Made by a program: the position numbers and the translations under genes. Of a stretch of 20,787 nucleotides of DNA, positions 2,805-20,787 are shown piece after piece. The stretch covers positions 1 through 20,787 of IMG/VR virus record IMGVR_UViG_3300028925_004935; one strand, written 5' to 3'. Every line of letters starts with the position of its first letter. Within the stretch, counting starts at the first letter, position 1. The notes below the pieces were generated by a model that saw only the letters and a program-made list of their open reading frames with translations, ran no database searches and was not told where the DNA came from. Source of the stretch: a virus.

Positions 2805-4223
2805 TTATCCTTTGATCATTACGTGCTGGTTAGCAGCGCGAGTACAAAGAGCGATCTCAGAGCGATAGTGGAAGACAGCGTTGTCTGTTCCTACATCTCC
2901 GTTGTTAGTGTGACCTAAGATGCTACCAGTTACCCAGTGCTCAAGTTCACGGTTGTACCCGTTAGCCTCCTTATAAGACATAGATAAAGCTGGTGCCTTC
3001 ATTCCGCTACGTGCGTCTGTAACCTGCGATAAAGGAATCATAGCCCCCTGTACGTAGTTAGATGCGCCTAGAAGAGTTGGGTCGTTCAATAGCTTCCAAT
3101 CGTGCTTGTGGAAAGTATATCCTCCACGAGTGAAAGATTTAAACCCAAGCTGTACAGCCATGTTTGCGTCATTGTTAAATGCTCCAAACTGTCCTGGTAA
3201 ACCAGCACTAACTGCAGAAGAGATGCCTGATGCTAACATGTCGTCGATAGCTAGGTCTTGCTTTCTGTTCACGTACATAGCGTACTCAGAAGGTGCACCT
3301 TGCTTATCAAGCTCCATGATAATATCATCGAACTCAGAGAAAGAGTCTAATGGGTTCGCGTTAGCGTTGCTTACTTGAATTCCACGATCCTCAATAGCTG
3401 AGAAGTATCCTTCAGATCCAGCAAGATCGCTACCAAGAGCTAAGCCTCCAGTCCCATCATGCTGCTGCCCTAAAAGCATCATCATTTCACGACGATCCTC
3501 AAAACGAGCGCGAGCTTCTTGCTCACCCTTCATAAACCAGCGGTATTCTCCGCCACCTACGTTTACCCAACCGATATTCGTAGCCTGTGATCCATTAACC
3601 TCGTAACGATCTTTAACGATCATATATGGGTTAGTGCGCTTCACTGCGTTGAAGTCATCGAATGCTGTGGGTTGGTTTGTTCCCTGAGCGTACATGTTAC
3701 CAAGCTTAATAAACTCTCCACCTACTAGGTCGAGGTCAGCAGAAACATCTACTGACGATCCGTCAAGCTTAACAAGTACTGCTGTAACAGGAGTCCCTGT
3801 TGCAAATCCACCAGACTGCACGAGGAATCGTGTTCCAGTAGAGCTATCCATAACTACATCGTTCTTTTGAACGTTAGATGTGAAAGCGTCTGCTCCTGCA
3901 CCCATAGTAATAGAGGATCCGTCTGCGTCACCTGTGTCACCAATTACATATGTAAATGATTTGTGACGACGACCAGCCTCCCACCAGTTTACTTCGTCAG
4001 AAGATCCACCGCTGTTAATTGCGCCTGTAAGTTTAAGAAATCCAGTGATACCTTGATCGCCGTAAGTCTCGATGAGTTGAGGCATATGCTCATCTTTAGT
4101 TGTTTTTAATAGATCGCCTACAGTTGTGTATGCTTCAGGTGTAATTCTGAAGTTACCTGCAGCTCCGTCGATTGGAGGTAAGTTACCTGTACTCGCGGTT
4201 CTATCTGTTCCTAATGTTGCCAT
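2805..4223 (-). CDS. Probable major capsid protein
   Basis: 472 residues, the usual size for an HK97-fold capsid protein of tailed phages. It lies immediately after a Gln/Glu-rich scaffold-like gene (21-base gap), the typical scaffold-capsid order. The N-terminal region (residues 25-70) contains TPEAYTTVGDLLKTT and helices typical of an N-arm. The centre contains aromatic and basic segments (GEYRWFMKGEQEARARFEDRREMM) and the C-terminal third mixes beta strands with a loop region (FGAFNNDANMAVQLGF, YTFHKHDWKLLND). There is no transmembrane segment or signal peptide. Codon and amino-acid use is balanced and the gene is uninterrupted. The call rests on size and neighbours; I cannot confirm the fold without a structure or profile search. 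Confidence 0.75.
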   Translation of the reverse strand: MATLGTDRTASTGNLPPIDGAAGNFRITPEAYTTVGDLLKTTKDEHMPQLIETYGDQGITGFLKLTGAINSGGSSDEVNWWEAGRRHKSFTYVIGDTGDADGSSITMGAGADAFTSNVQKNDVVMDSSTGTRFLVQSGGFATGTPVTAVLVKLDGSSVDVSADLDLVGGEFIKLGNMYAQGTNQPTAFDDFNAVKRTNPYMIVKDRYEVNGSQATNIGWVNVGGGEYRWFMKGEQEARARFEDRREMMMLLGQQHDGTGGLALGSDLAGSEGYFSAIEDRGIQVSNANANPLDSFSEFDDIIMELDKQGAPSEYAMYVNRKQDLAIDDMLASGISSAVSAGLPGQFGAFNNDANMAVQLGFKSFTRGGYTFHKHDWKLLNDPTLLGASNYVQGAMIPLSQVTDARSGMKAPALSMSYKEANGYNRELEHWVTGSILGHTNNGDVGTDNAVFHYRSEIALCTRAANQHVMIKG

Positions 4224-8099: not shown

Positions 8100-8110
8100 A
8101 GTCTATATTA

Positions 8111-8524
8111 TTATGATGCGGTTGATTGAGAGAAAACAGCATATTCAACCTTCATATTAGCTGCACTAGTATCTATATCTACGTCTAAAGTTCCGTCGTA
8201 TGGGAAGAAGCACCAATCTCCTGGATAGAGTCTACCCATTAAAACATTACTACCTCCTAACTCCACTGTTACAAAATCGCTAGACCCAGTAGCTGAATTC
8301 TTAATATAAACTTTATGAGAAGTGGTTGTATCTACATAAGCCGCAGCAGCAACAATATTTTCTGCTGTTTTAGCAGCTGCGTATACTACAGTAGTAACAC
8401 CTGTAAACTGGTCTAAACCAGTAGCAGTACCTGCTTTATTTAAGTTAGTTGTCTTACTTAAATTTAAAGGGTCCCCAGTAATATCTGGACTAGTAAGATT
8501 AATTGTCGCTGAGATCGTAGCCAT
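8111..8524 (-). CDS. Tandem paralog 1, beta-rich phage protein
   Basis: 137 residues, first of the four-member array. It opens MATISATINLTSPDITGDPL, with NLNKAGTATGLDQFTGVT, AYVDTTTSHKVYIKNSATG, then VLMGRLYPGDWCFFPYDGTL and the end VEYAVFSQSTAS. Its closest relative is paralog 2. There is no export signal. Upstream is a 44-base spacer with a TATATTTGC motif 20 bases before the ATG, so it may open a separate transcript covering the array, scaffold and capsid genes. A structural role is inferred from position. Possible identities include a head fiber, a decoration protein or a tail-tube-associated protein; the sequence does not decide between them. Confidence 0.8.
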   Translation of the reverse strand: MATISATINLTSPDITGDPLNLSKTTNLNKAGTATGLDQFTGVTTVVYAAAKTAENIVAAAAYVDTTTSHKVYIKNSATGSSDFVTVELGGSNVLMGRLYPGDWCFFPYDGTLDVDIDTSAANMKVEYAVFSQSTAS

Positions 8525-8568: not shown

Positions 8569-8760
8569 TTATTTTCCACCCTTGCTATGGTTAGAAAGTT
8601 TGAACATTGCTTTTTCTACAGACTTAGGATGAGGAGCATAAGAGCCTTCCATTAAAAAATATCTACCGCCTTCTTCCATCCAGTGGTAGCCCTTGGGAGG
8701 GGCTACTTCTATCTTCTTGCTAGATACCTTTAGCTTAGTATTTTTTTTAACAGGTTTCAT
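8569..8760 (-). CDS. Small basic phage protein, 63 residues
   Basis: Begins with a Lys-rich stretch (MKPVKKNTKLKVSSKKIEV), followed by a compact aromatic core (APPKGYHWMEEGGRYFLMEG, SYAPHP), and ends KLSNHSKGGK. The core looks like a small beta hairpin; the family is not recognised. It overlaps the preceding Lys-rich gene by four bases (ATGA), so it is translationally coupled. It belongs to a run of small basic proteins between the membrane/secreted set and the tandem paralogs. The SKGGK end echoes GGK motifs in three neighbours. Function unknown; nucleic-acid binding would fit the charge. Confidence 0.7.
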   Translation of the reverse strand: MKPVKKNTKLKVSSKKIEVAPPKGYHWMEEGGRYFLMEGSYAPHPKSVEKAMFKLSNHSKGGK

Positions 8761-9128
8761 TTTTTAGGTTTTTTTACTTTTTTCTTGCTGTAAGTATAGC
8801 TTTTTCGAGTTCCGTCAGCGTTAAGAACTTCAGTGCTAGTAGTGCTTGTGCCTCTTCTTCTCGTTCCTGATCCAAAAATCTTTGGCTTAAAGACCACTGT
8901 ATTTACAGATGTAGTGGTGGTATTTGGTTTCTCTCCATCAGGGTGTTTATGAGTGCTAACTCTAGTGTTACTGGAAGATGTAGTTGTCTTGTCTTTGCCT
9001 CTCTTATTTTTTTTTGTAGTGGTCTCCGAAGTGGTCAAATTGTTCAAGGATACGTTAACCCTAGGTTCTTTTTTGATAGACTTACCTCCGTTATTATACT
9101 TCTTAATTACCTTTTTAATTGCTTTCAT
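8757..9128 (-). CDS. Lys/Thr-rich low-complexity basic protein, 123 residues
   Basis: The N-terminus MKAIKKVIKKYNNGGKSIKK is strongly basic. The centre is Thr/Ser-rich with repeated TTTSSS and TTTTSVNTV segments. Two basic patches, FGSGTRRRG and YTYSKKKVKKPKK, end the protein. It is probably disordered with DNA- or RNA-binding capacity. The opening MKAIK and the GGK motif recur in the small basic protein at 19274-19501. It overlaps its upstream neighbour by one base and its downstream neighbour by four. No domain is recognised. The intact frame among tightly coupled genes supports that it is real despite its low complexity. Confidence 0.68.
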   Translation of the reverse strand: MKAIKKVIKKYNNGGKSIKKEPRVNVSLNNLTTSETTTKKNKRGKDKTTTSSSNTRVSTHKHPDGEKPNTTTTSVNTVVFKPKIFGSGTRRRGTSTTSTEVLNADGTRKSYTYSKKKVKKPKK

Positions 9129-9448
9129 TATTTCTTTTTTCTACAACGCCATTTACGTAAAGCTAAAGCCTTTCTTGTAGGTTTACCATTTGGCTTTTTC
9201 ATAGGTCCTTTCATCCCACTCATTCTAGCGCAAAAAGATTTGCGTCTCTTTGCAGCCTTAGACCCCGCTTTAACTTTCCCTGTTACAGCCATCTTAAGCT
9301 TGCTGCCTGGATTTGCCTTTCTGTAAGAAGCTACACCTTTTGCGTTTAATCCGCCTTTTGGATTCTTCCCTGCTTTACGTGTCCAAGCAGGAGTCTTACC
9401 TCCTTTCTTATATTCCTTTTCTTTATGTTCGCATTTACAAGCTTTCAT
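9128..9448 (-). CDS. DUF6321-like small basic phage protein
   Basis: 106 residues, extremely rich in Lys and Arg. Residues 32-100 carry the pattern GGLNAKGVASYRKANPGS, KAAKRRKSFCARMSGMKGPM, then KPTRKALALRKWRC. I recall this arrangement from short proteins of many marine phages, grouped as DUF6321. The order of GGLNAKG, RRKSFCARMSGMKGPM and LRKWRC is distinctive, so family assignment is fairly safe, although the function is not established. The N-terminus MKACKCEHKEKEYKKGGKT holds two Cys and a YKKGGK motif. High charge and conserved Cys/Trp residues suggest nucleic-acid binding, perhaps linked to packaging or the internal head. It is coupled to both neighbours by one-base overlaps. Confidence 0.78.
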   Translation of the reverse strand: MKACKCEHKEKEYKKGGKTPAWTRKAGKNPKGGLNAKGVASYRKANPGSKLKMAVTGKVKAGSKAAKRRKSFCARMSGMKGPMKKPNGKPTRKALALRKWRCRKKK

Positions 9449-9810
9449 TAGAATGCACTCATTATAACTTCGTCAACCGCATCTTGCACTTCTGATTGTG
9501 TAGCCTCAAGCTGCATCATAATGTTAGCTTGAAACCTTTCTACTTCTTCGCCTTCACTAAAAATAACAAGAGTAGGGACCACAACGATCTTATGTTCTTT
9601 TTGCATGTCAGGGTTTGACGCTATATCTATACGTCTGCCCTTACAGTCACTTAGGTTATCTAACCAGCTTACACTATTGCTAGCATTAAAACTAGCGTTA
9701 AATTCTACAACACATACACCTGAATCTGGGATATTGATCTCTTCAGGTATAGAAACATATACTGCTGTAGTGAACAAAAGAAAAGAAAGAGTGATGAGTA
9801 AAGTTTTCAT
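9448..9810 (-). CDS. Secreted thioredoxin-fold protein lacking the CxxC site
   Basis: 120 residues. Residues 1-18 are a signal peptide (MKTLLITLSFLLFTTAVYV). CVVEFNASFNAS (33-44) occupies the place of the thioredoxin beta strand and active site, where canonical members have F-x-A-x-W-C-x-x-C; here the Cys pair is replaced by Asn and polar residues. RRIDIASNPDMQKEHKIVVV followed by PTLVIFSEGEEVERF (79-93) matches the strand-helix-cis-Pro (P79)-strand-glycine-turn part of the fold. The two remaining Cys (33 and 56) are outside the active-site position. The role is therefore not classical disulfide exchange; a chaperone-like or binding role in the periplasm is inferred. It lies between the membrane protein and the DUF6321-like gene. 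Confidence 0.72.
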   Translation of the reverse strand: MKTLLITLSFLLFTTAVYVSIPEEINIPDSGVCVVEFNASFNASNSVSWLDNLSDCKGRRIDIASNPDMQKEHKIVVVPTLVIFSEGEEVERFQANIMMQLEATQSEVQDAVDEVIMSAF

Positions 9811-9816
9811 GGATTA

Positions 9817-10101
9817 TTATTTTAAAGCATCTATTTTGTCCTCAATATTTTTAAGGTCGGCTTTCATCTCCTTAACATCGTCCTGAGTAGTCATAATTGT
9901 TTGACGAACCAATTGATCTTTCATGTCAAACTCCATACGTGTAATCTCTGGATCTGGTGGCACAGGCAATTCTTTTGCTAAAGTTATGTCTGCTTGAAGA
10001 GCAAACCACATAGCAATTAATGATCCTATACCAGCAACTCCCATACCTATTGTCTTTAAGTCTAAAGTTACTTCTGTTTTCTCCCCAATCTGTTGCGCCA
10101 T
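9817..10101 (-). CDS. Single-pass membrane protein with C-terminal coiled coil (holin- or lysis-like?)
   Basis: 94 residues. A polar N-terminus (MAQQIGEKTEVTLDL) precedes one hydrophobic segment at about residues 17-36 (TIGMGVAGIGSLIAMWFALQ). Then comes a Pro-rich hinge (LPVPPDPEI) and a heptad-type charged helix to the end (DDVKEMKADLKNIEDKIDAL). One transmembrane helix plus a coiled coil is compatible with a small holin, an inner-membrane spanin-type subunit or a structural membrane anchor. No endolysin lies next to it in this window, so the lysis reading is weak. It sits in a run of envelope-directed genes (beta-barrel upstream, secreted thioredoxin-fold protein downstream). Confidence 0.72.
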   Translation of the reverse strand: MAQQIGEKTEVTLDLKTIGMGVAGIGSLIAMWFALQADITLAKELPVPPDPEITRMEFDMKDQLVRQTIMTTQDDVKEMKADLKNIEDKIDALK

Positions 10102-10104
10102 ATC

Positions 10105-10320
10105 TTATGCTTTTGATTCTAATTTAGTTCTTGCTATATACTTTCCGTCGGCATCTCTAGTTAAAATATATCCTAATTTTTGTTCGTTTGCGTCTGCCGA
10201 ACTACTCCATATTTTTTTTGCTATCTCCCTATTAACGGACATCCCTATAGACCCCTCATAGGGCATACTGTAATTTACAGTATTTTTCTTTTTCTTTTTC
10301 TTTTTAATGATATTTGGCAT
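10105..10320 (-). CDS. Small Lys-rich phage protein, 71 residues
   Basis: The N-terminus is MPNIIKKKKKKKN with eight successive or near-successive lysines. The remainder is a compact soluble part (YSMPYEGSIGMSVNREIAKK, then KLGYILTRDADGKYIARTKL). No family is recognised. It fits between the beta-barrel gene (2-base gap) and the membrane protein (3-base gap), and its reading frame fills the space without overlap, which supports a real gene. The poly-Lys start suggests an interaction with nucleic acid or acidic surfaces. Confidence 0.65.
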   Translation of the reverse strand: MPNIIKKKKKKKNTVNYSMPYEGSIGMSVNREIAKKIWSSSADANEQKLGYILTRDADGKYIARTKLESKA

Positions 10321-10322
10321 AT

Positions 10323-11360
10323 TTATAATATTACATAGTTAAGTCCCACTGAGAAATCGTGCCACTCTCTGTTCCAATACTTATTGTATTTTCCCTCTAA
10401 GAACACACCAAGACTCTTATTTAATCTCCAACCAAAGATAAGACCTCCAGAGTAATCTATCCACTGGTCCCCGCTTGTTGCTTCAAAGTAAGAGTACTCG
10501 CTGTCAACCCTTAGGTGATAAGGCATTACACTCGCCCAGCTGTGCATCCAAAAGTTTTTAGAAAATTTATAATAGTCAAATCCTACTACTATTGAGTGGT
10601 TCCATTGGCTAGGAAGCTCGCTTCTTTTACGAAACACATAATCATCTATAACCTCAGGAACAACCACCTGCTCCCAAACATCTGCACTTGTAGCAACAAG
10701 AAATCCTTCTGAATTGTAATATTCGTTAGCAGATACATCTACAGTGTATCCCTCTTGAATAGCAAGAGTGGTATAATGTAAATTCCCATTAGATAACATC
10801 CACTCTTCTAAGGCGTCATAGCCATAAGGCTCGGATATTCGTTGTGCAATGCCAAGATTAAAACTAAGCCTATCATTTACACTTAATCGTAATCTTTGTG
10901 ATCCTTCAAAATACTCTACGTCCGCAAAACCATCCTGTACATATTCCACTTTAGTTACCCAGTCCTTAGCAACGTATCTAACAAAATGATTTTGATCTAA
11001 AAAGTTTACTCCTTGTTGTCGTCTCCAATCAGCTTCAAATAAAAACTCAAAGCCTTTTACTTTACCTACTGTAGCTGCGTCACTATATGATTTTTCTGTT
11101 CCGTTATAAAAAGCATTAGCTCGGTTCTCATATCCAAACCTAGCTATTTTACGAACTCCAGCAGTAAAAGAATAATCAAAAGGAGTCTCTATAATGTCCG
11201 TTTGTAAAGAGTTAGTTACAGAATATACGCTATTATCAGAAATAGAATTCCCTCCGCTGAATGCAGTATAAAAAGTTGCAAACTTAAAAGTCTTTTTTAA
11301 GGTTTGGCTACTAACACTAAATGAAAGTAACGAGAATAATATAACTAATAAATACCTCAT
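10323..11360 (-). CDS. Probable outer-membrane beta-barrel protein
   Basis: 345 residues. Residues 1-19 are a signal peptide (MRYLLVILFSLLSFSVSSQ, cleavage likely before Gln19). The mature part alternates hydrophobic and polar residues in many aromatic-rich strands (FATFYTAFSGG, FEFLFEADWRRQQG, WNHSIVVGFDYYKFSKNFWM, DYSGGLIFGWRLNKSLGVFL). It ends WHDFSVGLNYVIL, like the last strand of outer-membrane barrels recognised by BamA. No plug or TonB box was seen. I considered a PorP/SprF-type T9SS component, because such barrels accompany T9SS cargo, but its N-terminal signature is missing. It lies just downstream of the T9SS type A protein, separated by one small gene. Roles such as surface receptor change or superinfection exclusion are inference. 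Confidence 0.68.
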   Translation of the reverse strand: MRYLLVILFSLLSFSVSSQTLKKTFKFATFYTAFSGGNSISDNSVYSVTNSLQTDIIETPFDYSFTAGVRKIARFGYENRANAFYNGTEKSYSDAATVGKVKGFEFLFEADWRRQQGVNFLDQNHFVRYVAKDWVTKVEYVQDGFADVEYFEGSQRLRLSVNDRLSFNLGIAQRISEPYGYDALEEWMLSNGNLHYTTLAIQEGYTVDVSANEYYNSEGFLVATSADVWEQVVVPEVIDDYVFRKRSELPSQWNHSIVVGFDYYKFSKNFWMHSWASVMPYHLRVDSEYSYFEATSGDQWIDYSGGLIFGWRLNKSLGVFLEGKYNKYWNREWHDFSVGLNYVIL

Positions 11361-11362
11361 GG

Positions 11363-11563
11363 TTATTGTAAAATTATTTGATTGTAAAAATTTTTATCTA
11401 TATCCTTAATAGGGTTTACAAAATTAACTTTGCAGTGCCTATTTATTTCTTGTCTCTTAGTTTTGCTATTAGTAACACAAACGTTAGCCGCTTGGTAAGA
11501 AGCGTTCTTACCTAAAAGACTATCAATACGTTTCTTAATCTTTTTATTCGTTAAATAACTCAT
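11363..11563 (-). CDS. Small basic protein of unknown function, 66 residues
   Basis: MSYLTNKKIKKRIDSLLGKN opens a basic amphipathic helix, followed by a short region with two Cys (ANVCVTNSKTKRQEINRHC) and a hydrophobic C-terminus (NFYNQIILQ). No family is recognised and there is no signal peptide. Its ATG overlaps the stop of the T9SS type A gene by four bases (ATGA), and its own stop lies 2 bases before the barrel gene start. It is thus locked between two envelope genes and probably translated from the same message. Function unknown. Confidence 0.62.
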   Translation of the reverse strand: MSYLTNKKIKKRIDSLLGKNASYQAANVCVTNSKTKRQEINRHCKVNFVNPIKDIDKNFYNQIILQ

Positions 11564-13563
11564 GACTTTATTATTTTTTTAATTAAAATTCTTCCGTTAT
11601 AATTTACAACAACCTCATAGAGGCCTTTAGGTAGATGCGTAAGGTTGATTCTTTTATCTCTAGTGCTTGGTATTACAATTTGACCAAAAGCATTGTACAC
11701 CTCTGTAAGGACGTTCTGAGAGGTCTGTATGTTTAATACGTCGCTTACTGGGTTAGGGTACACATCAAACCCATTGTTAGCTTCTGGAACTCCTGTTGGC
11801 CATCCCTGCTCACAATAGCTGTATAAATCAATACAAGCGTTGTCCCATTCTACTTCGCAACAGTATGGATCTATTGTTATTATCCACGCATAGCATGAGT
11901 CGTTTAAGTAATAAGGGGTACCTGGTTCACCTATACATCCCGCATCGTATAAACATAATTCATTACTAGGGGAGTTGGCTAACTCATTGTAATTCACTGC
12001 GTTAGGGTCCGTGCAGTCAACAACTACTTCAATGCAGTCTCCTGTATCTACGTTAGCTTCACTATCATAATTTAAGGCTAGCTCATCCATACATCCAAAT
12101 AAAGCTAATTCATTACAACTCCCATTGTCGTAGTCCGCTACATAACCCTGATTGTAGTATTCTACATATCCCGCTTGAGTGCAACCCGCAAAAAAATAAC
12201 AAGTATTATCTTCGGCGTTAGCATCTACATCGTAGTTCTGAGCTTCTATATCCATGCACCCGTATACAAATACCTCACAGTAATTAGAACACGTTGGTGT
12301 TTCAGTGTATTTATATGGAAATTTTTTAAGAGGATCTGTCCAGGGGTTTGTTCCACTCTGTAGCACCGTTCCGTTCGGGCCTTCAATTCTAAAGCCACAT
12401 TGTGAAGCTGTTGTTTCTGCATTACCCTCCGTGAAAAAATAAACACTTATCTCTTCGTTTGAGTTTAGAGTTAGATTAAAATCCTCTTCATACCCATCAT
12501 TTACTCCCATTGAGTAAGGACCGTAGACACTGTCTCCTTGAGTCATTCCTAACCAACTACCAAACCATCCGTCTGCTCCACCGTCTGTAATAGTAAGGGT
12601 GTAATCACATGAAGGGTGAACATCCATAGTGTTTGCCAAGACATCGTAATTAAACATTGTAATGTCTGTACAACCTAACGTTACAAGTGTATTACAACTT
12701 CCATCATCTGTAACTGCTAAAGGATTGTATTCTACATATCCTGGCGTAGTGCATCCTTGAAAAGATACAGGTGCACATACAGGTACTATGTAGGGATTAG
12801 AAGAAATTGTGTCAAACTGAGTTTCTCCGCCCACTGTAAAAATACTATCTCCACACAATGTTAGCACATTGAAATATCCATCTACTCCTCCCCAACAAGT
12901 ACCGCACATTCCGTCTCCGTAAGTATCATAAATAGTAGCTACAAGAGTATCTCCTTCGTTAACACATGTGTAAGTTGGTATTGTTACTCCTGTAGTTCCT
13001 TCGTACCCTCCAGATATAAGAGTGTCTCCGTTAACTGTTATCTGCCAGCTCGTTTCATTAGGATAGCTATCAGGAGTAATAAGAGAAATAATGTTAGTTT
13101 GGCCGCTAGCACAAGCGGCTGGGGGAAAGGTACAAGGAGCAGGAGAATTAGCCCAAGGATTAAAGTTTAAAGCTTCTGCTTCCATACATCCTATTACGGG
13201 TGGTGGGCAAGCTAGCAAGTCAAAGTATACAGTTGCTGTAGGACTGTTAAAATCATATACAAATGTATTTAAACCACAGTTGTTAACTAGACCAAAATAC
13301 CCTTCTCCCCAATCACAACATATACCATCACCAAATTGATCATATATAACAAAGTTATATCCTCCTGGGGGAAGAGTAACAAATATTTCATTATACGAGT
13401 TGTTTGCGTATGCCCCAGATATAGCTACAATAGTACTGTCTTCGTAAATTTCCCAGCTAGTTTCTCCTCCGTAGTTATCGGCCTGTACTATTACATTAAC
13501 CCAACTGCTTTGAGATAAAATTGTTACAGGTAAAAAAAATAAAAAGAAGATTAATTTTTTCAT
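11560..13563 (-). CDS. Secreted T9SS type A cargo protein (adhesin-like)
   Basis: 667 residues from MKKLIFFLFFLPVTILSQS, a clear signal peptide. An in-frame Met 13 codons upstream is rejected because it would bury the signal. Residues 21-118 and about 155-258 are two beta domains sharing SW(E/Q)I, (I/V)YDxxGDG and GYF motifs. Six or seven Cys repeats of the form GC(T/M)D..A.NY...A....C lie at about 125-145, 270-290, 297-320, 435-455, 460-483, 490-510 and 516-537. A CCEVEWDNAC motif is at 568-577. Residues 599-667 (FDVYPNPVSDVLNI, LPKGLYEVVV, KKIIKS) form a type A C-terminal sorting domain, which the host T9SS recognises for passage over the outer membrane and anchoring. Its place between packaging and capsid genes is unusual. 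A surface adhesin or shield role is inferred. Confidence 0.88.
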   Translation of the reverse strand: MKKLIFFLFFLPVTILSQSSWVNVIVQADNYGGETSWEIYEDSTIVAISGAYANNSYNEIFVTLPPGGYNFVIYDQFGDGICCDWGEGYFGLVNNCGLNTFVYDFNSPTATVYFDLLACPPPVIGCMEAEALNFNPWANSPAPCTFPPAACASGQTNIISLITPDSYPNETSWQITVNGDTLISGGYEGTTGVTIPTYTCVNEGDTLVATIYDTYGDGMCGTCWGGVDGYFNVLTLCGDSIFTVGGETQFDTISSNPYIVPVCAPVSFQGCTTPGYVEYNPLAVTDDGSCNTLVTLGCTDITMFNYDVLANTMDVHPSCDYTLTITDGGADGWFGSWLGMTQGDSVYGPYSMGVNDGYEEDFNLTLNSNEEISVYFFTEGNAETTASQCGFRIEGPNGTVLQSGTNPWTDPLKKFPYKYTETPTCSNYCEVFVYGCMDIEAQNYDVDANAEDNTCYFFAGCTQAGYVEYYNQGYVADYDNGSCNELALFGCMDELALNYDSEANVDTGDCIEVVVDCTDPNAVNYNELANSPSNELCLYDAGCIGEPGTPYYLNDSCYAWIITIDPYCCEVEWDNACIDLYSYCEQGWPTGVPEANNGFDVYPNPVSDVLNIQTSQNVLTEVYNAFGQIVIPSTRDKRINLTHLPKGLYEVVVNYNGRILIKKIIKS
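11953..13191 (-). repeat. Coding repeats: Cys-rich GC(T/M)D-A-NY-DGSC units
   Basis: Within the T9SS type A protein, about seven degenerate ~20-residue units begin with GC and end with C. The clearest are GCMDIEAQNYDVDANAEDNTC, GCMDELALNYDSEANVDTGD and the weaker CTDPNAVNYNELANSPSNEL. They are interrupted by a beta domain at residues 321-427. Units of this shape are common in secreted proteins of marine Flavobacteriia; Asp/Asn-rich loops suggest calcium binding, which is inference. Confidence 0.7.
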
Positions 13564-13576
13564 GTTTCCTATGTTG

Positions 13577-13747
13577 TTAAACAACCACTTGTATTGATCC
13601 AATGGATTTTTCGGTTAATATTGTTGAAGACGCAGCAGATAAACTTGCAGAAACGGAAAAGTTTTTTTTTGTAAAGCTAACAGAAGTACTGCCGCCAACA
13701 GAAACGCTAACTGTATTGTCAGATGTTGTGCTTACAGATACACTCAT
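13577..13747 (-). CDS. Small Ser/Val-rich phage protein, 56 residues
   Basis: An ATG at 13747 opens 56 codons ending TAA at 13577. The product starts MSVSVSTTSDNTVSVSVGGS, continues TSVSFTKKNFSVSASLSAAS and ends SIGSIQVVV. It fills the space between the Ig-like gene (2-base gap) and the T9SS type A gene (13 bases), with no overlap if the latter starts at 13563. Alternating Ser/Val residues predict beta strands; no family is recognised. A run of nine A lies mid-gene; frames after a slip give no sensible product, so normal translation is assumed. Function unknown, perhaps a minor structural protein. Confidence 0.55.
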   Translation of the reverse strand: MSVSVSTTSDNTVSVSVGGSTSVSFTKKNFSVSASLSAASSTILTEKSIGSIQVVV

Positions 13748-13749
13748 TA

Positions 13750-14253
13750 TTATTCAAATGCTTCGGTTACATCTGCGTTAACAGAAAACTTTCCTCTTAA
13801 AACAGTCCTGTGAGTATCTAAGCCAGAAGCGTTAGGAAGAATATACTGAAGGTCATAAGAGTAACTCCCAGAAGGAACTTTACTCATAGTTTCAGCGGAA
13901 GCTTCAATAGTTACGTTTCCACTATCATCAACGGTAGGGGTTTCAAATGTCCTTCCACTAGACGGTACAGATACTACAGGAGGCGGGATCCTAGTCTTAG
14001 ACTTAGACTTAACTCGGACCTGATCCTTTGCTGCGGCATTAGGAGTACCTAAAATTAAAGTTGATCTAACGGAACCTCCTCTTCTCGTCACCTCCGTAGA
14101 TTTTACTTGCATTAAAAAAACGTACCCGCTGGTAGACAAAGTAAGGGCCGTACCCGCAGAATTCTTTAAAGTAAGCGTAATAGAAAAGGTATCTCCTTTC
14201 CTACATGTTATATTTAAGACATCTGATCTATCTAAATTTACTGAACTAGCCAT
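13750..14253 (-). CDS. Ig-like beta-sandwich phage structural protein
   Basis: 167 residues. Residues 10-55 (LNITCRKGDTFSITLTLKNS, then TLSTSGYVFLMQVKS) follow a pattern common at the N-terminus of phage baseplate and structural proteins: R-x-GDTF, beta strand, then G-(Y/x)-x-F-x-MQV. Residues 70-110 form a basic, Pro-containing linker (VRVKSKSKTRIPPPVVSVPS). The C-terminal part is another beta segment (DDSGNVTIEASAETMSKVPS, GSYSYDLQYILP) ending with a short acidic tail. There is no signal peptide. It starts 1 base after the portal stop, so it probably belongs to the portal/neck module. The exact role (neck, baseplate or decoration) is not resolved. Confidence 0.7.
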   Translation of the reverse strand: MASSVNLDRSDVLNITCRKGDTFSITLTLKNSAGTALTLSTSGYVFLMQVKSTEVTRRGGSVRSTLILGTPNAAAKDQVRVKSKSKTRIPPPVVSVPSSGRTFETPTVDDSGNVTIEASAETMSKVPSGSYSYDLQYILPNASGLDTHRTVLRGKFSVNADVTEAFE

Positions 14254-14254
14254 A

Positions 14255-16693
14255 TTATTCGTTTAATAATGCATTAATTAGTTTGTTTGAACCTTCAGGC
14301 AGCTCCTCTCTTTTCCCTTGTCTTTGAGATATAAGTTTGCTTTGGTCGGAGGTTTGTTGATCTAGCCTGTCGTCTTTACGGGTTTCTTTTAAAACCTCAA
14401 GTTTTTCTTTAAACTCTTTATCGTCCTCTTTAAATCCAAGAGTAGCTTGAGCTTTAAGCATTTCAATTTCTTTAGTAAACTCATGCCTCATTTGCGCCAT
14501 CTTCATATCGACCTGCGCTTGCATTTGAATTTTTTGAGTGTCAATTTGACCCTGCGCTTGCATTTCAGACATTTTAGCTTGTTGTGCCTGTTGTGCTATT
14601 TGACCCTGCATTTTAGCTTGTTGCTCTGAGTTCTGCTGAGCCATCTGCTGCTGCATAGCCATTCTTTTTTTACGCCTAACAACAAGAAGCCTTTCCGCTT
14701 GGTTGATATCTTTTAAACCTCTAACAGCTATAGCGTCTTCTAAATCTAACTCTTGTTGTTGAAGGGCCATCTGGATGTTTTGTTCTAGATAAGCCTTATC
14801 TTTCTCCTCCATGTCTTTTACAACAACTACCCCAAAGTTGTACATTGGAAGGTCTCTGAAAGAAGCTAAAGCCTCCATATTTGTGTCTCCGATAGCGTTC
14901 TCATATATTTTATATAGAACAGATTCAGTAGGTATAATTTGAATGCATTTAACTATATCCTCACATACTTTTTTAAACAAAACCATAGCGGCATTTGTTA
15001 TATCATATATAGCGTTATTACCTGCAGCTATAGCTTGATTTTGAACACCAACTAAAGCATCACCTTTAGGGGAAGAAGCGTCCATTGCTTCATTGATTCC
15101 CGTTGTATCTCTTATTAAACCTAAGTAATGGTTATATAAACCTACAAGTTCATTAATGTTTCTTATGCTATTGCTTATCTCTCTAACAGGAGGGTTTTGG
15201 AATCCACCTTCGGGGTTTTTACTTCTGTAATAAAAAACACCTGTCTGCTCATATATGTCATGAAGATCTAAAGGCTGTAGCTCTCCACCTTTTCCTAGCT
15301 GTACATTCTCTAATCCTTCTATATCTATAATCAAACCATCTGGTTTGGCTTTTGCTATAGCTTGCTGTATCTTTAAGTGAGTAAGCTGAAGCATATCTGC
15401 AAATCCCACACAGCTATTTACCATAGATTTTGGCATCATGTTACGGATATTAGTTGCCGTTACAGAATAAGACAATGTAGCCTTAGATATATCGTGTATA
15501 TTTTTAGGTACGTTCTTAGTTTTGCCATACCCAAATAAATAATCACAACCTAAAACATAACTTCCGCCATAAACAGTAGACACCTCTAATTTATGAGGGG
15601 TTCTCTCAAACACACTGTTCTTGTTAGGTTGCTCCTCAAAGCCTTTAAAGTAAAACCCCGTGTTGCCATGTTTGTTTTCTTTTTCTTCAAAATGAATGCA
15701 ATCGACAGAAATAAACTCAAAGTCTAAAACCTCAACCATATAATCGTCATATCCAAATGAGGTCTTACCTAGGGCTTGACTATAGTTGTTCTTATTGTAT
15801 TTTCCAGAATCATTACCATTTCGGCCTTTAGATTTCTGAGCAATCTTTTTGTAGTCCTCCTCATTTAATTCCTCTCCAGCTAAACGTTTTAACTCTTGTA
15901 TAGAGATTTTTTTTATGTGCCCAGCGTATATAAGATCTTCGAAATTAGGGTCTTCTGTGTAGCTATGTATAAACATACACGGATCTACGTAAGATGTTTT
16001 AATGCCTTCGTTTGGATCGTTTGACCTTTTTACTACAGACATACCTAGAGTAGCCAAGTCATTTACACATCTTCGGAAAGTATTATCTACGAAGTTATTC
16101 CACGTAAGAGTAAGTTCCGTCCCTAGCTGAGCCGATATCTCCCCGTCTGTTTTAACGTTAGTGTCAAATAAAATCTCCGCTTCTTCTGGTGTATCTGGAA
16201 TAGAATCTGGATCCATATCTAAAACAACACCCGTCTTATCTTTTAGCTCTTTAAGTTTATCCTTAGAGTCAACTTGCTTTAAAATCCTTTTCTTTTTTTC
16301 ATTTTTTTCAGAAGAAGATAAAGGGTCTACCGCTTCTAAATTAGGATAAGGATTAACAGACAATATCTTGTTAACTACAATTCTTACGAATTTAGGTAGA
16401 ATAGGGACTGGGGTGTAATCCATATTTAACAAAGCTCCGTCCGCTTTATTTGGATTCAGGGAATTTAATAGCTGCTTATATATACTTGTATCTTGAACCC
16501 CAATAGCATAATCTCGGTCTTTCTCAAAAGTTTTATTTCTCTTACCTACTAAAGAAGAATCGTCCGTAGTTTTTCCCCATTGAGATTCAATAGCTTTAGC
16601 GTACTGAACACCATATTCTTTCTTTTGCTTTAATTCCGTAGATTCTAATGGATCTGGGAAACCCTGCTTGCTTTTATTCTCGTTATTATACAT
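14255..16693 (-). CDS. Portal protein
   Basis: 812 residues, directly downstream of the terminase gene, where portals sit in most tailed phages. The N-terminal region has QKKEYGVQYAKAIESQW and DRDYAIGVQDTSIYKQLL. Residues 85-130 (PVPILPKFVRIVVNKILSVN) match the early helical part of portals. The centre carries typical portal stem/wing features (SYVDPCMFIHSYTEDPNFED, NHYLGLIRDTTGINEAMDAS, GVQNQAIAAGNNAIYD). Residues ~670-790 are a long Gln/Met/Lys coiled coil (MQQQMAQQNSEQQ, then AQMRHEFTKEIEMLKAQ), which may form an extended barrel reaching into the head. At 812 residues it is larger than most portals, closer to podovirus or crAss-like lengths. Assignment rests on order, length and the RDTTGINEA-type segment common in portals. 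Confidence 0.85.
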   Translation of the reverse strand: MYNNENKSKQGFPDPLESTELKQKKEYGVQYAKAIESQWGKTTDDSSLVGKRNKTFEKDRDYAIGVQDTSIYKQLLNSLNPNKADGALLNMDYTPVPILPKFVRIVVNKILSVNPYPNLEAVDPLSSSEKNEKKKRILKQVDSKDKLKELKDKTGVVLDMDPDSIPDTPEEAEILFDTNVKTDGEISAQLGTELTLTWNNFVDNTFRRCVNDLATLGMSVVKRSNDPNEGIKTSYVDPCMFIHSYTEDPNFEDLIYAGHIKKISIQELKRLAGEELNEEDYKKIAQKSKGRNGNDSGKYNKNNYSQALGKTSFGYDDYMVEVLDFEFISVDCIHFEEKENKHGNTGFYFKGFEEQPNKNSVFERTPHKLEVSTVYGGSYVLGCDYLFGYGKTKNVPKNIHDISKATLSYSVTATNIRNMMPKSMVNSCVGFADMLQLTHLKIQQAIAKAKPDGLIIDIEGLENVQLGKGGELQPLDLHDIYEQTGVFYYRSKNPEGGFQNPPVREISNSIRNINELVGLYNHYLGLIRDTTGINEAMDASSPKGDALVGVQNQAIAAGNNAIYDITNAAMVLFKKVCEDIVKCIQIIPTESVLYKIYENAIGDTNMEALASFRDLPMYNFGVVVVKDMEEKDKAYLEQNIQMALQQQELDLEDAIAVRGLKDINQAERLLVVRRKKRMAMQQQMAQQNSEQQAKMQGQIAQQAQQAKMSEMQAQGQIDTQKIQMQAQVDMKMAQMRHEFTKEIEMLKAQATLGFKEDDKEFKEKLEVLKETRKDDRLDQQTSDQSKLISQRQGKREELPEGSNKLINALLNE

Positions 16694-16718
16694 CCTTAAG
16701 ATATGGTATTTCTATTTA

Positions 16719-16727
16719 GCAAATATA
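16719..16727 (-). promoter_or_regulatory. TATATTTGC motif, possible -7 promoter element
   Basis: The minus strand reads TATATTTGC in the 39-base spacer between terminase and portal, about 26 bases before the portal ATG. It matches the Bacteroidota TAnnTTTG -7 box and is identical to the copies at 1727-1735 and 8543-8551. A -33 TTG is not obvious, so it could be an AT-rich coincidence. Confidence 0.35.
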
Positions 16728-16732
16728 GTAAA

Positions 16733-18850
16733 TCATCCGATTACTTGATATCTCCTAAAGAATCGTTTTTCAGACAAGTCAGAAGTCTTTTTAGACTTAG
16801 CTTTTTGCGCTCCTAATAGAGCTAATCCAGAGCTAATCGTAAGGTCATATTTAGTTCTATCGTCTATCTTATAACCTATCCAATCCTCTAGTGTTTTATT
16901 AAAATACATTTTTCCAACATCTCCCGTTTCTCTATTTGTTCCTACATGGTCATGTATAAAGGCCTCTATAGCATGTGCGTGAGCTTGGATTACATCTTGT
17001 GAGTTAGATGGGATACCTTTTGTTTTAGATTTCATTCCGCTAGCGCTGATTAAATGCTTAGGCCTATCCATTAAATACCCGTCATACCCTCTGGCTTCAA
17101 AGTGCCTTGCGATACCATATTTGTTATTCTCTATTAATATAGGGTAACCATAAAACACAGAGGCCATTAAAACATCTTCGTAGAATATTTTAGCTAAAGG
17201 AGGTCTTGAAGCATACTCTAGTACAAACATGTTGCAAGGGTGCTCCATGTGAAACTTGTTGTATAGATGTAAGGAGCCTTTTGATCCTCTCCCGTCTACA
17301 GTAGCGTCAAGATCATACGAGTCAACTCCACCCACTCCAAAATTTGAATGAGGAGCTACCCTCTTGCCTCTCTCTGTTTTCTTTTGGTTTCTAAAATCAG
17401 GAGGTGGCATCCAGGCAATTTTAAATCTACCCTGAACGTTTGGGCTAAATACTACCTCAGTGTCTTTTACCCCTCCTTTCCAGACAAAGTTTCCCGCAAC
17501 AACAGGGTTAGGAAACAGCTCGTCGTTATGCTCTATCTGTTCATAGATCTGCCCGATGTTAAATACACTCCCTTCTATACTATCCCTAAAGGCTTCGTCT
17601 TCCGTAAAGGGGAATTGCCTGACCACTTCGTTTAACTCCGAAGCATCGTTTTTTAAAGAGTCTCTTTCATTCTTTAAGAATGTTTTAGCCCCGATATAAA
17701 TGTACTCGTTATCTATACCTTCTGTAGTATCTATAGGGTCTTCAACTATTGGGTGACCAAACTTATCAAAGAAACCTTCTAGAGAATTATATGCAGGAAT
17801 AAAAAGTCTATATAGACCAGTTCTAGTCCTCCCATTCGCGTTCCTCTCCAAAGGATTTGAGTCCTCCCAAAGATCCTTGTATTGACTTCCCCCTTTGTCC
17901 ATTGGGTTTACCGTGCTTCCGACCATTGCCTTCCCCACGATTTTTCTTCCGACGATCAAACAAGTCCTCTGAATCCTCCAAGCGTCTCTTATGTCTGTAG
18001 GTCTTTCCCATTTTCCTGCTTCATCTAAATACAACAGGTGTAACTTCTCCCCGTCATATGCGTTATTTGTTGTGTTTTTCCAATTTATAACCGTGTTCAA
18101 AGCTTCCCCCATTTGAGAGGTTTTGTTCTTCTTGGTTATTCTTTTCGATGGCTCTCTAAAGGCCAGCTCCATACGCGGATTGGTTGTACCGTCCTGGATA
18201 GGCTTAAAAAAGAAAGGGTAGTTTCTAAACATAAAAACAACCTTCTTCATAAATATATTTTCTTGGGCATCCTTACCAGTCTTAGACTGAATCCCCATAA
18301 GTTTGTCTTTGACTTGCGTCCCTTCGTCTACAAGCACAGATGAACACATATTTGTGTACCCACTACGACGACACTTAGTATATAGCTGACCTATACATCT
18401 AGGATCAATTTCACACGCCGCTAAGTGTAAGAAGATATCTCTTTGGAAGTTTAAAAAATACGGGTAACCAATATCCATCTTGGTCCACTGTATCATCATG
18501 TAGTGCCGCCCCGTAATATATGTAGCTGTGCCGTTGTTATAAAACCAAAAACCCTCACGCCTACGCCTAAACTCTTCCTCGATATATGGACGAAACCTTG
18601 CTCTAAACTCTCGTGGCATTTCCGCCCACTCATCCATAGAACGAATACGAGACAGTTCCTGCGGCATAAGTACCCTTCCCCACATTTGCATAGAGTTTGG
18701 TTCTTTATATCCTGAAATTTCTTTTTTCGGAGGCCTTTTTGGAAGGCAAATGAGTAGCCCACCGAGTTCAATAAGCTCACCTTCCGTACCGTTGGGACAA
18801 ATTTTAACAGCTGGTTCTTCATACTCTTTAACATCTAAAAGTATACTCAA
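16733..18850 (-). CDS. terL: Terminase large subunit (DNA packaging ATPase/nuclease)
   Basis: 705 residues, at the upper end of the family. Residues 159-166 read KCRRSGYT, a deviant Walker A in which the usual GK(S/T) lysine is Tyr and a Lys starts the motif; I recall lambda gpA having the same layout (KSARVGYS). Walker B is LLYLDEA (273-279), followed by the coupling motif GSTVNP (311-316). FTEDEAF at 416-421 marks the linker. The RNase H-like nuclease shows GVDSYD (508-513), IENNKYG (573-579) and a C-terminal KYDL (667-670) as candidates for the acidic metal ligands. It pumps DNA into the prohead through the portal and cuts concatemers. Its ATG overlaps the zinc-ribbon gene stop by 4 bases; no recognisable small terminase is adjacent. 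Confidence 0.9.
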   Translation of the reverse strand: MSILLDVKEYEEPAVKICPNGTEGELIELGGLLICLPKRPPKKEISGYKEPNSMQMWGRVLMPQELSRIRSMDEWAEMPREFRARFRPYIEEEFRRRREGFWFYNNGTATYITGRHYMMIQWTKMDIGYPYFLNFQRDIFLHLAACEIDPRCIGQLYTKCRRSGYTNMCSSVLVDEGTQVKDKLMGIQSKTGKDAQENIFMKKVVFMFRNYPFFFKPIQDGTTNPRMELAFREPSKRITKKNKTSQMGEALNTVINWKNTTNNAYDGEKLHLLYLDEAGKWERPTDIRDAWRIQRTCLIVGRKIVGKAMVGSTVNPMDKGGSQYKDLWEDSNPLERNANGRTRTGLYRLFIPAYNSLEGFFDKFGHPIVEDPIDTTEGIDNEYIYIGAKTFLKNERDSLKNDASELNEVVRQFPFTEDEAFRDSIEGSVFNIGQIYEQIEHNDELFPNPVVAGNFVWKGGVKDTEVVFSPNVQGRFKIAWMPPPDFRNQKKTERGKRVAPHSNFGVGGVDSYDLDATVDGRGSKGSLHLYNKFHMEHPCNMFVLEYASRPPLAKIFYEDVLMASVFYGYPILIENNKYGIARHFEARGYDGYLMDRPKHLISASGMKSKTKGIPSNSQDVIQAHAHAIEAFIHDHVGTNRETGDVGKMYFNKTLEDWIGYKIDDRTKYDLTISSGLALLGAQKAKSKKTSDLSEKRFFRRYQVIG

Positions 18851-19035
18851 AACGTCTGCCCATATCTATTAGATCTAAACCCAGGTGCGCCAGATTTTGG
18901 GTTAGCTAACGTCATATATTTCTCGCATTTCTCGCATTGGACGTCATGTATTACACCTTCCCCTTCAATATGCCTTATTGTTACGCCTGATTTATCTACA
19001 ACTTCGTCGTTGCAATCACATTTATACTCTGCCAT
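18847..19035 (-). CDS. Small zinc-ribbon protein upstream of terminase
   Basis: 62 residues from MAEYKCDCNDEVV. An upstream in-frame Met at 19107 would overlap the lipoprotein gene for 68 bases, so I choose 19035. CxC at residues 6-8 and CEKC at 34-37 are four potential zinc ligands. Between them SGVTIRHIEGEGVIHDV looks like the ribbon strands. The C-terminus GAPGFRSNRYGQTF is a basic, aromatic tail. The gene overlaps terL by four bases (ATGA), which suggests that the product is made in step with the terminase. A role in DNA recognition during packaging, perhaps replacing a classical small terminase, is a guess. Confidence 0.72.
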   Translation of the reverse strand: MAEYKCDCNDEVVDKSGVTIRHIEGEGVIHDVQCEKCEKYMTLANPKSGAPGFRSNRYGQTF

Positions 19036-19039
19036 CTTA

Positions 19040-19249
19040 TTAAAATTCAGCTCTAATGTAACCTCCTGCATGCTTGTACGGGGACATGTATTTTGGCGCT
19101 GGGCCATCGCAACACCATTCGGCGCCTCCTCCCCAAGAGTCTATACACCAGCATTGATTGTAATGTCTCGCTTGAGACCTTCTGTGTTTAGTTTGCACAG
19201 AACATGACGCTAATAATATAGCAGACATAAAGATAAGTAAATATTTCAT
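19040..19249 (-). CDS. Small Cys-rich phage lipoprotein
   Basis: 69 residues. MKYLLIFMSAILLASCSVQT is a lipoprotein signal: charged start, hydrophobic core and LLASC lipobox with lipidated Cys16. The mature part is short and Cys/Trp-rich (YNQCWCIDSWGGGAEWCCDG), then PAPKYMSPYKHAGGYIRAEF. The four extra Cys may form disulfides in the periplasm or on the surface. The gene ends 5 bases before the zinc-ribbon start. Small phage lipoproteins often block superinfection or act as outer-membrane spanins; spanins have a partner gene with an inner-membrane anchor, and none is adjacent here. Function is therefore open, but the lipoprotein call is clear. Confidence 0.8.
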   Translation of the reverse strand: MKYLLIFMSAILLASCSVQTKHRRSQARHYNQCWCIDSWGGGAEWCCDGPAPKYMSPYKHAGGYIRAEF

Positions 19250-19273
19250 TATATATATATTAAATTTAATAGC

Positions 19274-19501
19274 TTATACGCTATTCCTTTTTTTAGGCCT
19301 GTTGTTAGCTCTGTTTTTAGACTGAGCTTGAAGTCTAGTCTTACCCCCTTTACTAAAATGAGCCTCGTCTAATCCGTCTCCGTTCCCGTAATTTCCTTTT
19401 TCTCTGTTAATTTGATTTAGCTCCGCGCGATATTTTTTAGCTTTAAGCTTAGATCCGTACTTAGCGTACTCCTTTTTATAATCTCTTTTTATAGCTTTCA
19501 T
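19274..19501 (-). CDS. Small basic phage protein, HNH-like remnant family
   Basis: 75 residues. MKAIKRDYKKEYAKYGSKLK leads into KKYRAELNQINREKGNYGNG, then DGLDEAHFSKGGKTRLQAQS and KNRANNRPKKRN. I recall short basic proteins of marine phages with the order R-x-x-LN, NG(D)G-x-D-x-x-H, GG and Q-x-x-xNR, which look like HNH nuclease remnants. Here GDGLDEAH and LQAQSKNRANNR match, but the full metal-binding pair needed for catalysis is not seen. It lies between a T9SS protein and the lipoprotein. Nucleic-acid binding is likely from charge; nuclease activity is doubtful. Confidence 0.65.
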   Translation of the reverse strand: MKAIKRDYKKEYAKYGSKLKAKKYRAELNQINREKGNYGNGDGLDEAHFSKGGKTRLQAQSKNRANNRPKKRNSV

Positions 19502-19531
19502 AACTCTTGCAATATACTAAAAAAAATACAG

Positions 19532-20704
19532 TTAGCGAAATATTGTTACAAGCCCTTGCAGCTGGGTGGCTTTTCCAGACTGAGTCGCGTTAAGCTTCCA
19601 AGTATAAACCCCATCAGGGCACAACCAATGTTGAGAAAAACTTGTCCCTGTCCAATAACCCATTGGATCGGTTATTTCTTTTACAAGCGTCCCCCATCTA
19701 TTGTATATCTGCATATTCCACGTTAACCAACACGTTGGATCGGTTATTGCATAAAATACATCATTGACCCCATCATTATTAGGGGTAAAAGTATTAGGAA
19801 TGAAAATACTGTTATCGTCACAGTCATTAATCCCGCCTCCACCATCTTCACAAGGTAAACCTGTATAGCAATCTATATATTCAGTTGAAAATACATATTC
19901 AGTAAGCGTTAAAGTATCTGTAACATAAACGTAATTATCTACAACTACGTCTACATACATCGTATCGGTTAAATAAATATACTCGTATTCAACAAGAGTA
20001 TCTGTTATATAAACTAATTGTAATAAATATTCTATTATAGTATCTGTTGTTACCCACTCTACATCTATATACTCAATTATTGTATCTGTGATGTACTCGA
20101 TAACTTCTACGTCTACATACACTGTATCACATGCAGGCAGAGCACAATTAACAACGGTGTTATTAGAAAGATCTACGTCAGGGTAGTTCTGCGTTTGGTT
20201 AAACCCTGGATTTACCGCCCAACCGCCATCATCTATAAAAGCTGTGCGAGATAGATTAATCTGCCATACAACTAACTCAGTACATAGCGTATCGTTAGCT
20301 AATACCTCAGTCCAACAATCACTTGTACTTGCCCCTGTATCATAGACATTAGCACTCCAAGTATCCCCACTCTCTAGCATTTGATTTCCATAAAGAGTAA
20401 AAACTTTAAACGTCCATCCTGGGTGATTGACTCCAGTCAAACAATCCAACCAATTATAATCCAACCCTTCTACATGCAACCCTAAAACTATTGATGAGAC
20501 TGTTTCGTTATTAGTTACGTACGGACTAGAGCTATTCTCACACGTATTACCTTCAGTTGTAAATTCATTGCAACCACAGTTCTCACTGTTAATAGCCTCT
20601 ATAACAATATCCCCTGTTATAGCATCCCAACTACTTATAGCTACATCGCATTGTGCAGATAGCGTTGGAACCCATAAAGCTAATAGATATATTAATTTTC
20701 GCAT
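19532..20704 (-). CDS. Secreted T9SS type B (gliding-motility-type CTD) protein
   Basis: 390 residues. Residues 1-18 are a signal peptide (MRKLIYLLALWVPTLSAQ). Residues 19-190 form a Cys-containing beta domain (SNCs such as ENCGCNEF, NSSSPYVTNNETV, WTEVLANDTLCTELVVWQIN). Residues 192-279 are a stalk of degenerate (V/I)TDT..EY repeats. Residues 300-390 are a type B sorting domain: IFIPNTFTPNNDGVNDVF, MQIYNRWGTLVKEI, then WLCPDGVYTWKL and LVTIFR. This is the CHU_C/gliding-motility-associated domain, which directs export by the host T9SS, often with an adjacent SprF-like partner; none is adjacent here. The ATG overlaps the stop of the preceding secreted-protein gene by 13 bases. Presumed cell-surface or adhesin role. 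Confidence 0.88.
   Translation of the reverse strand: MRKLIYLLALWVPTLSAQCDVAISSWDAITGDIVIEAINSENCGCNEFTTEGNTCENSSSPYVTNNETVSSIVLGLHVEGLDYNWLDCLTGVNHPGWTFKVFTLYGNQMLESGDTWSANVYDTGASTSDCWTEVLANDTLCTELVVWQINLSRTAFIDDGGWAVNPGFNQTQNYPDVDLSNNTVVNCALPACDTVYVDVEVIEYITDTIIEYIDVEWVTTDTIIEYLLQLVYITDTLVEYEYIYLTDTMYVDVVVDNYVYVTDTLTLTEYVFSTEYIDCYTGLPCEDGGGGINDCDDNSIFIPNTFTPNNDGVNDVFYAITDPTCWLTWNMQIYNRWGTLVKEITDPMGYWTGTSFSQHWLCPDGVYTWKLNATQSGKATQLQGLVTIFR
19868..20131 (-). repeat. Coding repeat: (V/I)TDT-EY stalk in the T9SS type B protein
   Basis: Residues 192-279 repeat the motif TDT(I/L/M) followed by hydrophobic-EY, as in EYITDTIIEY, TTDTIIEY, YITDTLVEY, YLTDTMYV and YVTDTLTLTEY. The period is near 12-17 residues. 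It suggests an elongated beta stalk separating the N-terminal domain from the sorting domain. Confidence 0.7.
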
Positions 20705-20787
20705 ACACCGTAGCTTGATAAAAATAATAATAAATCTTGAACGTCTACCGTTCCACTATCATCCAAGTCCCCAGGGCATGTATCCTC
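20692..20787 (-). CDS. C-terminal end of a secreted protein with dockerin/EF-hand-like motif (partial)
   Basis: The last 31 codons of a gene that begins outside the right edge; TAA at 20692. The visible part is EDTCPGDLDDSGTVDVQDLL followed by LFLSSYGVCEN. CPGDLDxDGxVxVxDLLxxL-x-YG is the calcium-loop and helix pattern of dockerin-like or EF-hand-like C-terminal modules, frequent in secreted proteins of marine Bacteroidota. It overlaps the start of the T9SS type B gene by 13 bases, so both are probably co-translated. The rest of the protein and any signal peptide are not in the window, so its true length and role are unknown. Confidence 0.7.
   Translation of the reverse strand, partial: EDTCPGDLDDSGTVDVQDLLLFLSSYGVCEN

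Follow-up and report, generated by a model that had tools for sequence, protein, structure and literature searches.

The stretch of DNA analysed here (the window) is a linear phage fragment of 20,787 bases from IMG/VR, record IMGVR_UViG_3300028925_004935, with all of its substantial genes on the minus strand. It carries a discrete module of four genes, T9A-barrel-TM94-Trx, which encode a type A cargo protein of the type IX secretion system (T9SS), a predicted outer-membrane beta-barrel, a protein with a single transmembrane (TM) segment and a coiled coil, and an exported or anchored thioredoxin fold. The module is phage-specific and is spread over many unrelated Bacteroidota phages. Since gene distributions differ across 80 mapped relatives of the terminase large subunit (TerL), the region has to be divided into at least three units: this module, a pair formed by a dockerin-like gene and the type B T9SS cargo gene T9B, and a lipoprotein gene of the phage lineage. 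The original prediction, which had read all of these as one envelope-directed gene set, was not borne out in this respect, as the two T9SS proteins belong to separate units with different distributions.

The linkage of the four genes is seen in several sets of records. Counted over 50 TerL-family records, T9A is present in 17 and Barrel in 18, with both together in 16 (Fisher p=5e-10), absences being weak evidence here because many records are fragments. At least 452 IMG/VR stretches encode barrel relatives. The best 80 of these, 61-100% identical, lie on contigs that measure 4-170 kb, and most barrel contigs, also those with unrelated backbones of 20-170 kb, preserve the order T9A, (small gene), barrel, TM94, Trx. 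A type A C-terminal sorting domain (CTD) was found in 43/50 barrel-bearing records, nearly always exactly one per record. Moreover, retrieval with TM94 only, which does not condition the loci on barrel or T9A, gave 51 loci of at least 9 kb, all of them with Trx (50 immediately adjoining), 50 with a barrel and 47 with a T9A homologue. Among 84,980 bacterial and archaeal genomes, barrel relatives occur in only five stretches, all of them contigs of metagenome-assembled genomes; in four of them phage-like genes adjoin or the module itself is present, and the fifth, L166, is a short fragment with chromosomal genes around it. Barrel had no match in 50,697 phage records, nor did tblastn with barrel, T9A and TM94 return any match among the isolated phages of INPHARED. 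All four genes are under purifying selection, with dN/dS of 0.03-0.08 (barrel), 0.06-0.18 (T9A), 0.00-0.11 (TM94) and 0.09-0.18 (Trx), several of the dS values being near saturation.

T9A (11560..13563 (-), 667 aa) consists of a signal peptide, three predicted beta-sandwich domains, GC(T/M)D cysteine repeats, a Cys-rich helical domain and an Ig-like CTD at about residues 599-667. This CTD scores above the curated cut-offs of both PF18962 (Por_Secre_tail; E=9e-11, 42.3 bits, cut-off 27) and TIGR04183 (34.8 bits, cut-off 23). By profile it matches the solved T9SS CTDs 8glk_D, 8glj_D and 5hfs, and superposing its model on 8glk_D gives a TM-score of 0.74 at 2.2 A. The sequence ends in KKIIKS, with a Lys near the C-terminus, as described for the translocon structures of F. 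johnsoniae, in which PorV loops hold CTDs inside SprA (PMC10994853). By profiles and predicted fold, the CTD is a genuine type A T9SS signal. The N-terminal Sec signal peptide, MKKLIFFLFFLPVTILSQ, was read by inspection, and its cut site obeys the Q-rule of Bacteroidota export, by which Q is expected at the mature N-terminus (PMC10653852). The model of the whole protein (pLDDT 77.8) reproduces the three beta-sandwich domains, the cysteine repeats and the Ig-like CTD, the arrangement of the domains being uncertain because pTM is only 0.41. No enzyme family was found in T9A via Pfam or Foldseek, and an enzyme domain was thus rejected. In a sister clade (L264-L342, e.g., L268:6814-9033), a short tail, 'DILGRP..LLFYIY.DGTVEKK', replaces the full CTD in 40 cases by pattern and 3 by eye, while 6 members have the full CTD. 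The tail has no Pfam or NCBIfam match, and in one hhalign comparison it aligns with the C-terminal half of the type A CTD.

The barrel (10323..11360 (-), 345 aa) has a signal peptide and, in the AF2 prediction, 12 strands (pLDDT 73.8, pTM 0.69), with the 12-strand barrels NanC, NalP and EstA as best Foldseek matches. The presumed mature N-terminal residue is Q in 34/38 barrels, in keeping with the Q-rule. The family has no Pfam, NCBIfam or PHROGs match, and the best BFVD match, A0A516LKJ4 (E=6e-21, 22% identity), is a nameless record that gave no identity. We rejected the possibility that the barrel is a T9SS part supplied by the phage, of PorP/SprF or PorV type, for which there is no sequence support and against which the folds favour generic 12-strand barrels; no sequence match to the PorV/FadL family was obtained and FadL ranks 11th by fold (TM-score 0.32), in a model whose moderate confidence is compatible with a remote relation to that family. 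The long loops are nearly as conserved as the strands, which suggests that they bind something constant. A protein of 57-63 aa (IxWINSWxAGNKKEKYE...CPC...FRFMIxNFGFE) stands beside the barrel in many relatives, either between T9A and barrel or just past the barrel (L102, L103, L115, L149). In the window its place is taken by g66 (11363..11563 (-)), a small conserved gene between T9A and barrel that also occurs without them.

TM94 (9817..10101 (-)) has, in a 20-member alignment, a single TM segment and a conserved coiled coil (ITRMEFDMKD...IEEKID). This layout resembles that of an inner-membrane spanin (i-spanin), which has an N-terminal TM segment and a periplasmic coiled coil, as TM94 may have. 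No lipoprotein outer-membrane spanin (o-spanin) was found in the module of the window or of the loci read. Trx (9448..9810 (-)) is exported or N-terminally anchored and its profile matches solved thioredoxins (E=1e-8). The CxxC active site is missing in 21/21 aligned members, and the protein is, by alignment, a redox-dead thioredoxin fold. The small Lys-rich open reading frame g71 (10105..10320 (-)), found only in the closest relatives of the window, is probably outside the module.

T9B (19532..20704 (-), 390 aa) comprises a signal peptide, an N-terminal domain, a TDT/IEY-rich stalk of variable length and a CHU_C CTD, the latter above cut-off for PF13585 (E=9e-14, 51.8 bits, cut-off 27) and TIGR04131 (40.1 bits, cut-off 35) and thus, by profile, a genuine type B T9SS signal. 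Its start is overlapped by the 3' end of the dockerin-like partner gene (20692..20787 (-)), which is whole in the near-identical contigs L002, L004, L006 and others, where it encodes 120 aa with a signal peptide and a dockerin-like end, and which lies upstream of T9B in every contig reaching that far. T9B is present in 10/50 TerL-family records, including the module-free L006/G003, and the pair is a unit separate from the T9A module; it would give this phage another surface unit that relies on the T9SS, independent of the first. No partner barrel of PorP/SprF type stands beside T9B, Barrel having no Pfam or NCBIfam match and being linked to T9A. Among close relatives two alternative versions of the T9B CTD exist (19532-20787; L006:1374-2953), which together with the variable stalk looks like allele swapping. 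A tblastn search of the INPHARED phages with T9B gave only CTD-level matches, type B-like domains in two huge uncultured phages of more than 630 kb (LR756502.1 519118-519387 and LR745206.1 15118-15396). The short lipoprotein (19040..19249 (-), lipobox LASC) is found in many TerL relatives that have no module and is a common gene of the phage lineage, independent of the module. At the level of single genes, the original prediction held well: the type A and type B sorting domains are real by the PF18962, TIGR04183, PF13585 and TIGR04131 searches, the signal-peptide barrel, secreted thioredoxin fold, single-pass protein and lipoprotein are present on the same strand as the terL, portal and capsid genes, and the third secreted protein, which it had noted by its tail, is the product of the dockerin-like gene, whose 3' end the window contains.

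The function that we favour for the module is inferred, and so are late synthesis, localisation in four envelope layers, T9SS export, joint action of the four proteins and any gain for the phage. The four proteins would be made late in infection. TM94 would reside in the inner membrane, Trx would be periplasmic and the barrel would lie in the outer membrane, while the host T9SS would carry T9A to the cell surface, where the barrel may be its seat or partner. Together they would rebuild the surface of the infected cell, and the likeliest benefit would be that adsorption or entry of further phages, released progeny included, is blocked. Receptor masking, superinfection block and aggregation, put forward in the original prediction, are candidate effects. 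We hold this proposal of surface remodelling to be about evenly balanced between right and wrong, and our reasons for preferring remodelling that limits adsorption or entry are the accessory, envelope-wide character of the module, its apparently late timing and its independence of the head genes. More tentatively, and with somewhat more doubt than belief, barrel, coiled-coil protein, redox-dead Trx and T9SS-exported protein could form one trans-envelope complex that spread horizontally between unrelated backbones.

Several observations weigh against the proposed surface remodelling. Such high conservation of the barrel loops is usually not expected of a surface protein in an arms race. T9SS export of T9A homologues may not be universal, because the sister clade ends in a tail that resembles half a CTD and matches no library. 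Also, the parts of the module may work apart, since L012 lacks T9A but has the other three genes, and L070 has TM94 and Trx but neither T9A nor barrel. No cultured phage bearing the module is present in the collection searched. Finally, the nearness of the module to lysis genes fits a role in lysis as well.

This last point is the basis of the main rival, in which TM94 acts as an inner-membrane spanin joined via Trx to the barrel, so that the outer membrane would be broken through or weakened once holin and endolysin have done their work, and T9A would be the surface part. Besides the i-spanin-like layout of TM94, the placement of the module speaks for it, as the holin is directly followed by the module in G035, G046, G052 and G073, and, on other backbones (G065, G075, G056, G057), the module lies beside endolysin or holin genes, whose families were checked with Pfam and PHROGs; in G065 and G075 it is between the holin-type and endolysin-type genes. 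A lysis gene was found in 26/51 of the TM94-fetched loci against about 19% of random windows, an enrichment that is inflated because some of the lysis seeds were taken from loci of this kind, which are also not independent of one another, and the per-contig test of module placement relative to lysis genes gave a weaker result. However, some 20 or more genes separate module and holin in the window and several relatives, the module has no lipoprotein partner, and G003 has a holin without the module. The slot behind the holin is, moreover, the end of the late operon: in G080, G028, G077 and G032 the holin is the last operon gene and is followed by genes on the opposite strand. Given the bias from seed choice and the late-operon end, we regard lysis as unlikely, retaining it only as a rival and rejecting it as the main function.

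The module is an accessory, movable cassette in late-gene regions, found between portal and capsid genes or following the holin, and missing from some close relatives. In the window, as well as in G080, G032, G028, G059 and G077, it is located between g167 and the decoration genes. In G003 (51 kb, TerL 98% identical), neither T9A nor a barrel is found anywhere, the holin is kept, and the order in the slot is g167, a 56-aa gene, then g106. The conserved synteny on which the original prediction depended was therefore recovered in part: many relatives keep the module in exactly the same slot, but G003 and Elemovirus are without it.

A less probable explanation, to which we give little weight, is that T9A and T9B are adhesins or binding proteins derived from the host, altering attachment, aggregation or nutrient capture with no anti-phage role. 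The beta-sandwich and cysteine-repeat domains of T9A, without enzyme families, would suit such a role, as would the MAM domains found in 3/20 sister-clade members, and glycoside hydrolases are among the known phage T9SS cargo (PMC7468147). Nevertheless, barrel and TM94 are essentially missing from bacterial genomes, unlike ordinary auxiliary genes of host origin, and the linkage of T9A to three phage-only genes would need a reason. Very improbable is the alternative in the original prediction that T9A or T9B is a virion-linked adhesin, on or bound to particles and aiding attachment. Although the genes of the window stand among head genes and relatives have fibre-like genes in this slot, the signal peptides and CTD indicate Sec/T9SS export, away from the cytoplasmic assembly of virions. 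The alternative is disfavoured by the signal peptide or TM segment that each module gene encodes, and by relatives in which the module follows the holin as the last part of the late operon, apart from the head genes. An assembly chimera of host and phage DNA, raised by the original prediction and suggested only by T9SS cargo being typical of host genomes, was rejected as practically inconceivable, given the same gene order in near-identical and many divergent independent contigs, dN/dS of 0.00-0.18 for the module genes and a barrel nearly missing from the bacterial and archaeal genomes.

The remainder of the window is a phage backbone with TerL (16733..18850 (-); phrog_6681, E=2.6e-200), portal protein (14255..16693 (-); phrog_6547, E=3.7e-191) and a capsid-type virion structural protein (2805..4223 (-); phrog_13704, E=7.9e-114). 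On the portal side, the module slot is bordered by g167 (13750..14253 (-)), assigned by phrog_1084 (E=6e-14) and synteny. The closest annotated TerL proteins are that of a podovirus record from spring water, at 49% identity, and those of Flavobacterium Elemovirus phages, at 39%; Cellulophaga phage TerL proteins match likewise, so that, from these matches, a Bacteroidota host is likely. In the nearest annotated relatives, Elemovirus and MW202828 (L240, L239), GroEL and GroES are encoded near the terminase, and portal, one structural gene and the capsid gene adjoin, without the module. At 6530-8524 the window encodes four consecutive small related proteins (v135, v250, v136, v137), paralogues that recur in other module-bearing phages and are maybe decoration proteins. 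Beside the module slot (8569-9448), the small, strongly basic Lys/Arg-rich proteins g106, g123 and g63 are candidate minor virion or DNA-binding proteins. Promoters and terminators were not above the level of shuffled sequence.

Phage genes of the late region that encode outer-membrane barrels and alter the cell surface, such as lambda Lom and the porin of phage PA-2, are a known parallel to the barrel, but they come with no T9SS cargo and no linked TM94 and Trx, and no sequence relation to them was seen. Two-component spanins likewise include a TM and coiled-coil protein whose late-region gene is commonly close to those of holin and endolysin; the module differs in having barrel, Trx and T9SS cargo instead of a lipoprotein o-spanin, and in being missing from a close relative. 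The linked cargo-barrel-coiled-coil-Trx module was not found described in the literature searched, which excluded preprints and most subscription journals, and Barrel and TM94 represent two protein families that match no known family in the libraries searched. Should the four proteins indeed form one trans-envelope complex, they would represent a class of phage envelope-takeover system to which studied phages have no counterpart. The four genes offer a concrete target for asking whether phages use the T9SS in superinfection control, lysis or aggregation.

With the type A substrates RemZ, NucA and FspA of F. johnsoniae (PMC10994853; 8glk, 8glj), T9A shares the CTD fold, the Lys near the C-terminus and presumably the PorV/SprA route; it differs in being encoded by a phage, with a phage-specific barrel partner and other passenger domains. 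Phage T9SS cargo as such, which the original prediction had held to be undescribed, is already in print (PMC7468147, PMC6949934). In the crAss-BACON phages of cluster 2, open reading frames with T9SS sorting domains stand beside head genes of gut Bacteroidota phages, much as in the window, although they are linked to BACON repeats and no four-gene module is described (PMC6949934). The type A cargo of cryophages, namely an endoglucanase, a GH39 protein and a PA14 protein in variable islands, was suggested to serve superinfection exclusion or competition via the host T9SS (Bellas 2020, PMC7468147). These phages resemble ours in infecting Bacteroidota, in their type A sorting domains and in a presumed use of the host T9SS, and are set apart, going by the published description, by the lack of described barrel, coiled-coil and Trx partners (PMC7468147). 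Phage T9SS cargo was thus previously known from isolated cases without partners, whereas here one cargo family is tied to a conserved, phage-exclusive set in hundreds of environmental phages, a linkage that speaks for a specific function, kept by selection, which the set performs in the envelope of Bacteroidota cells under infection.

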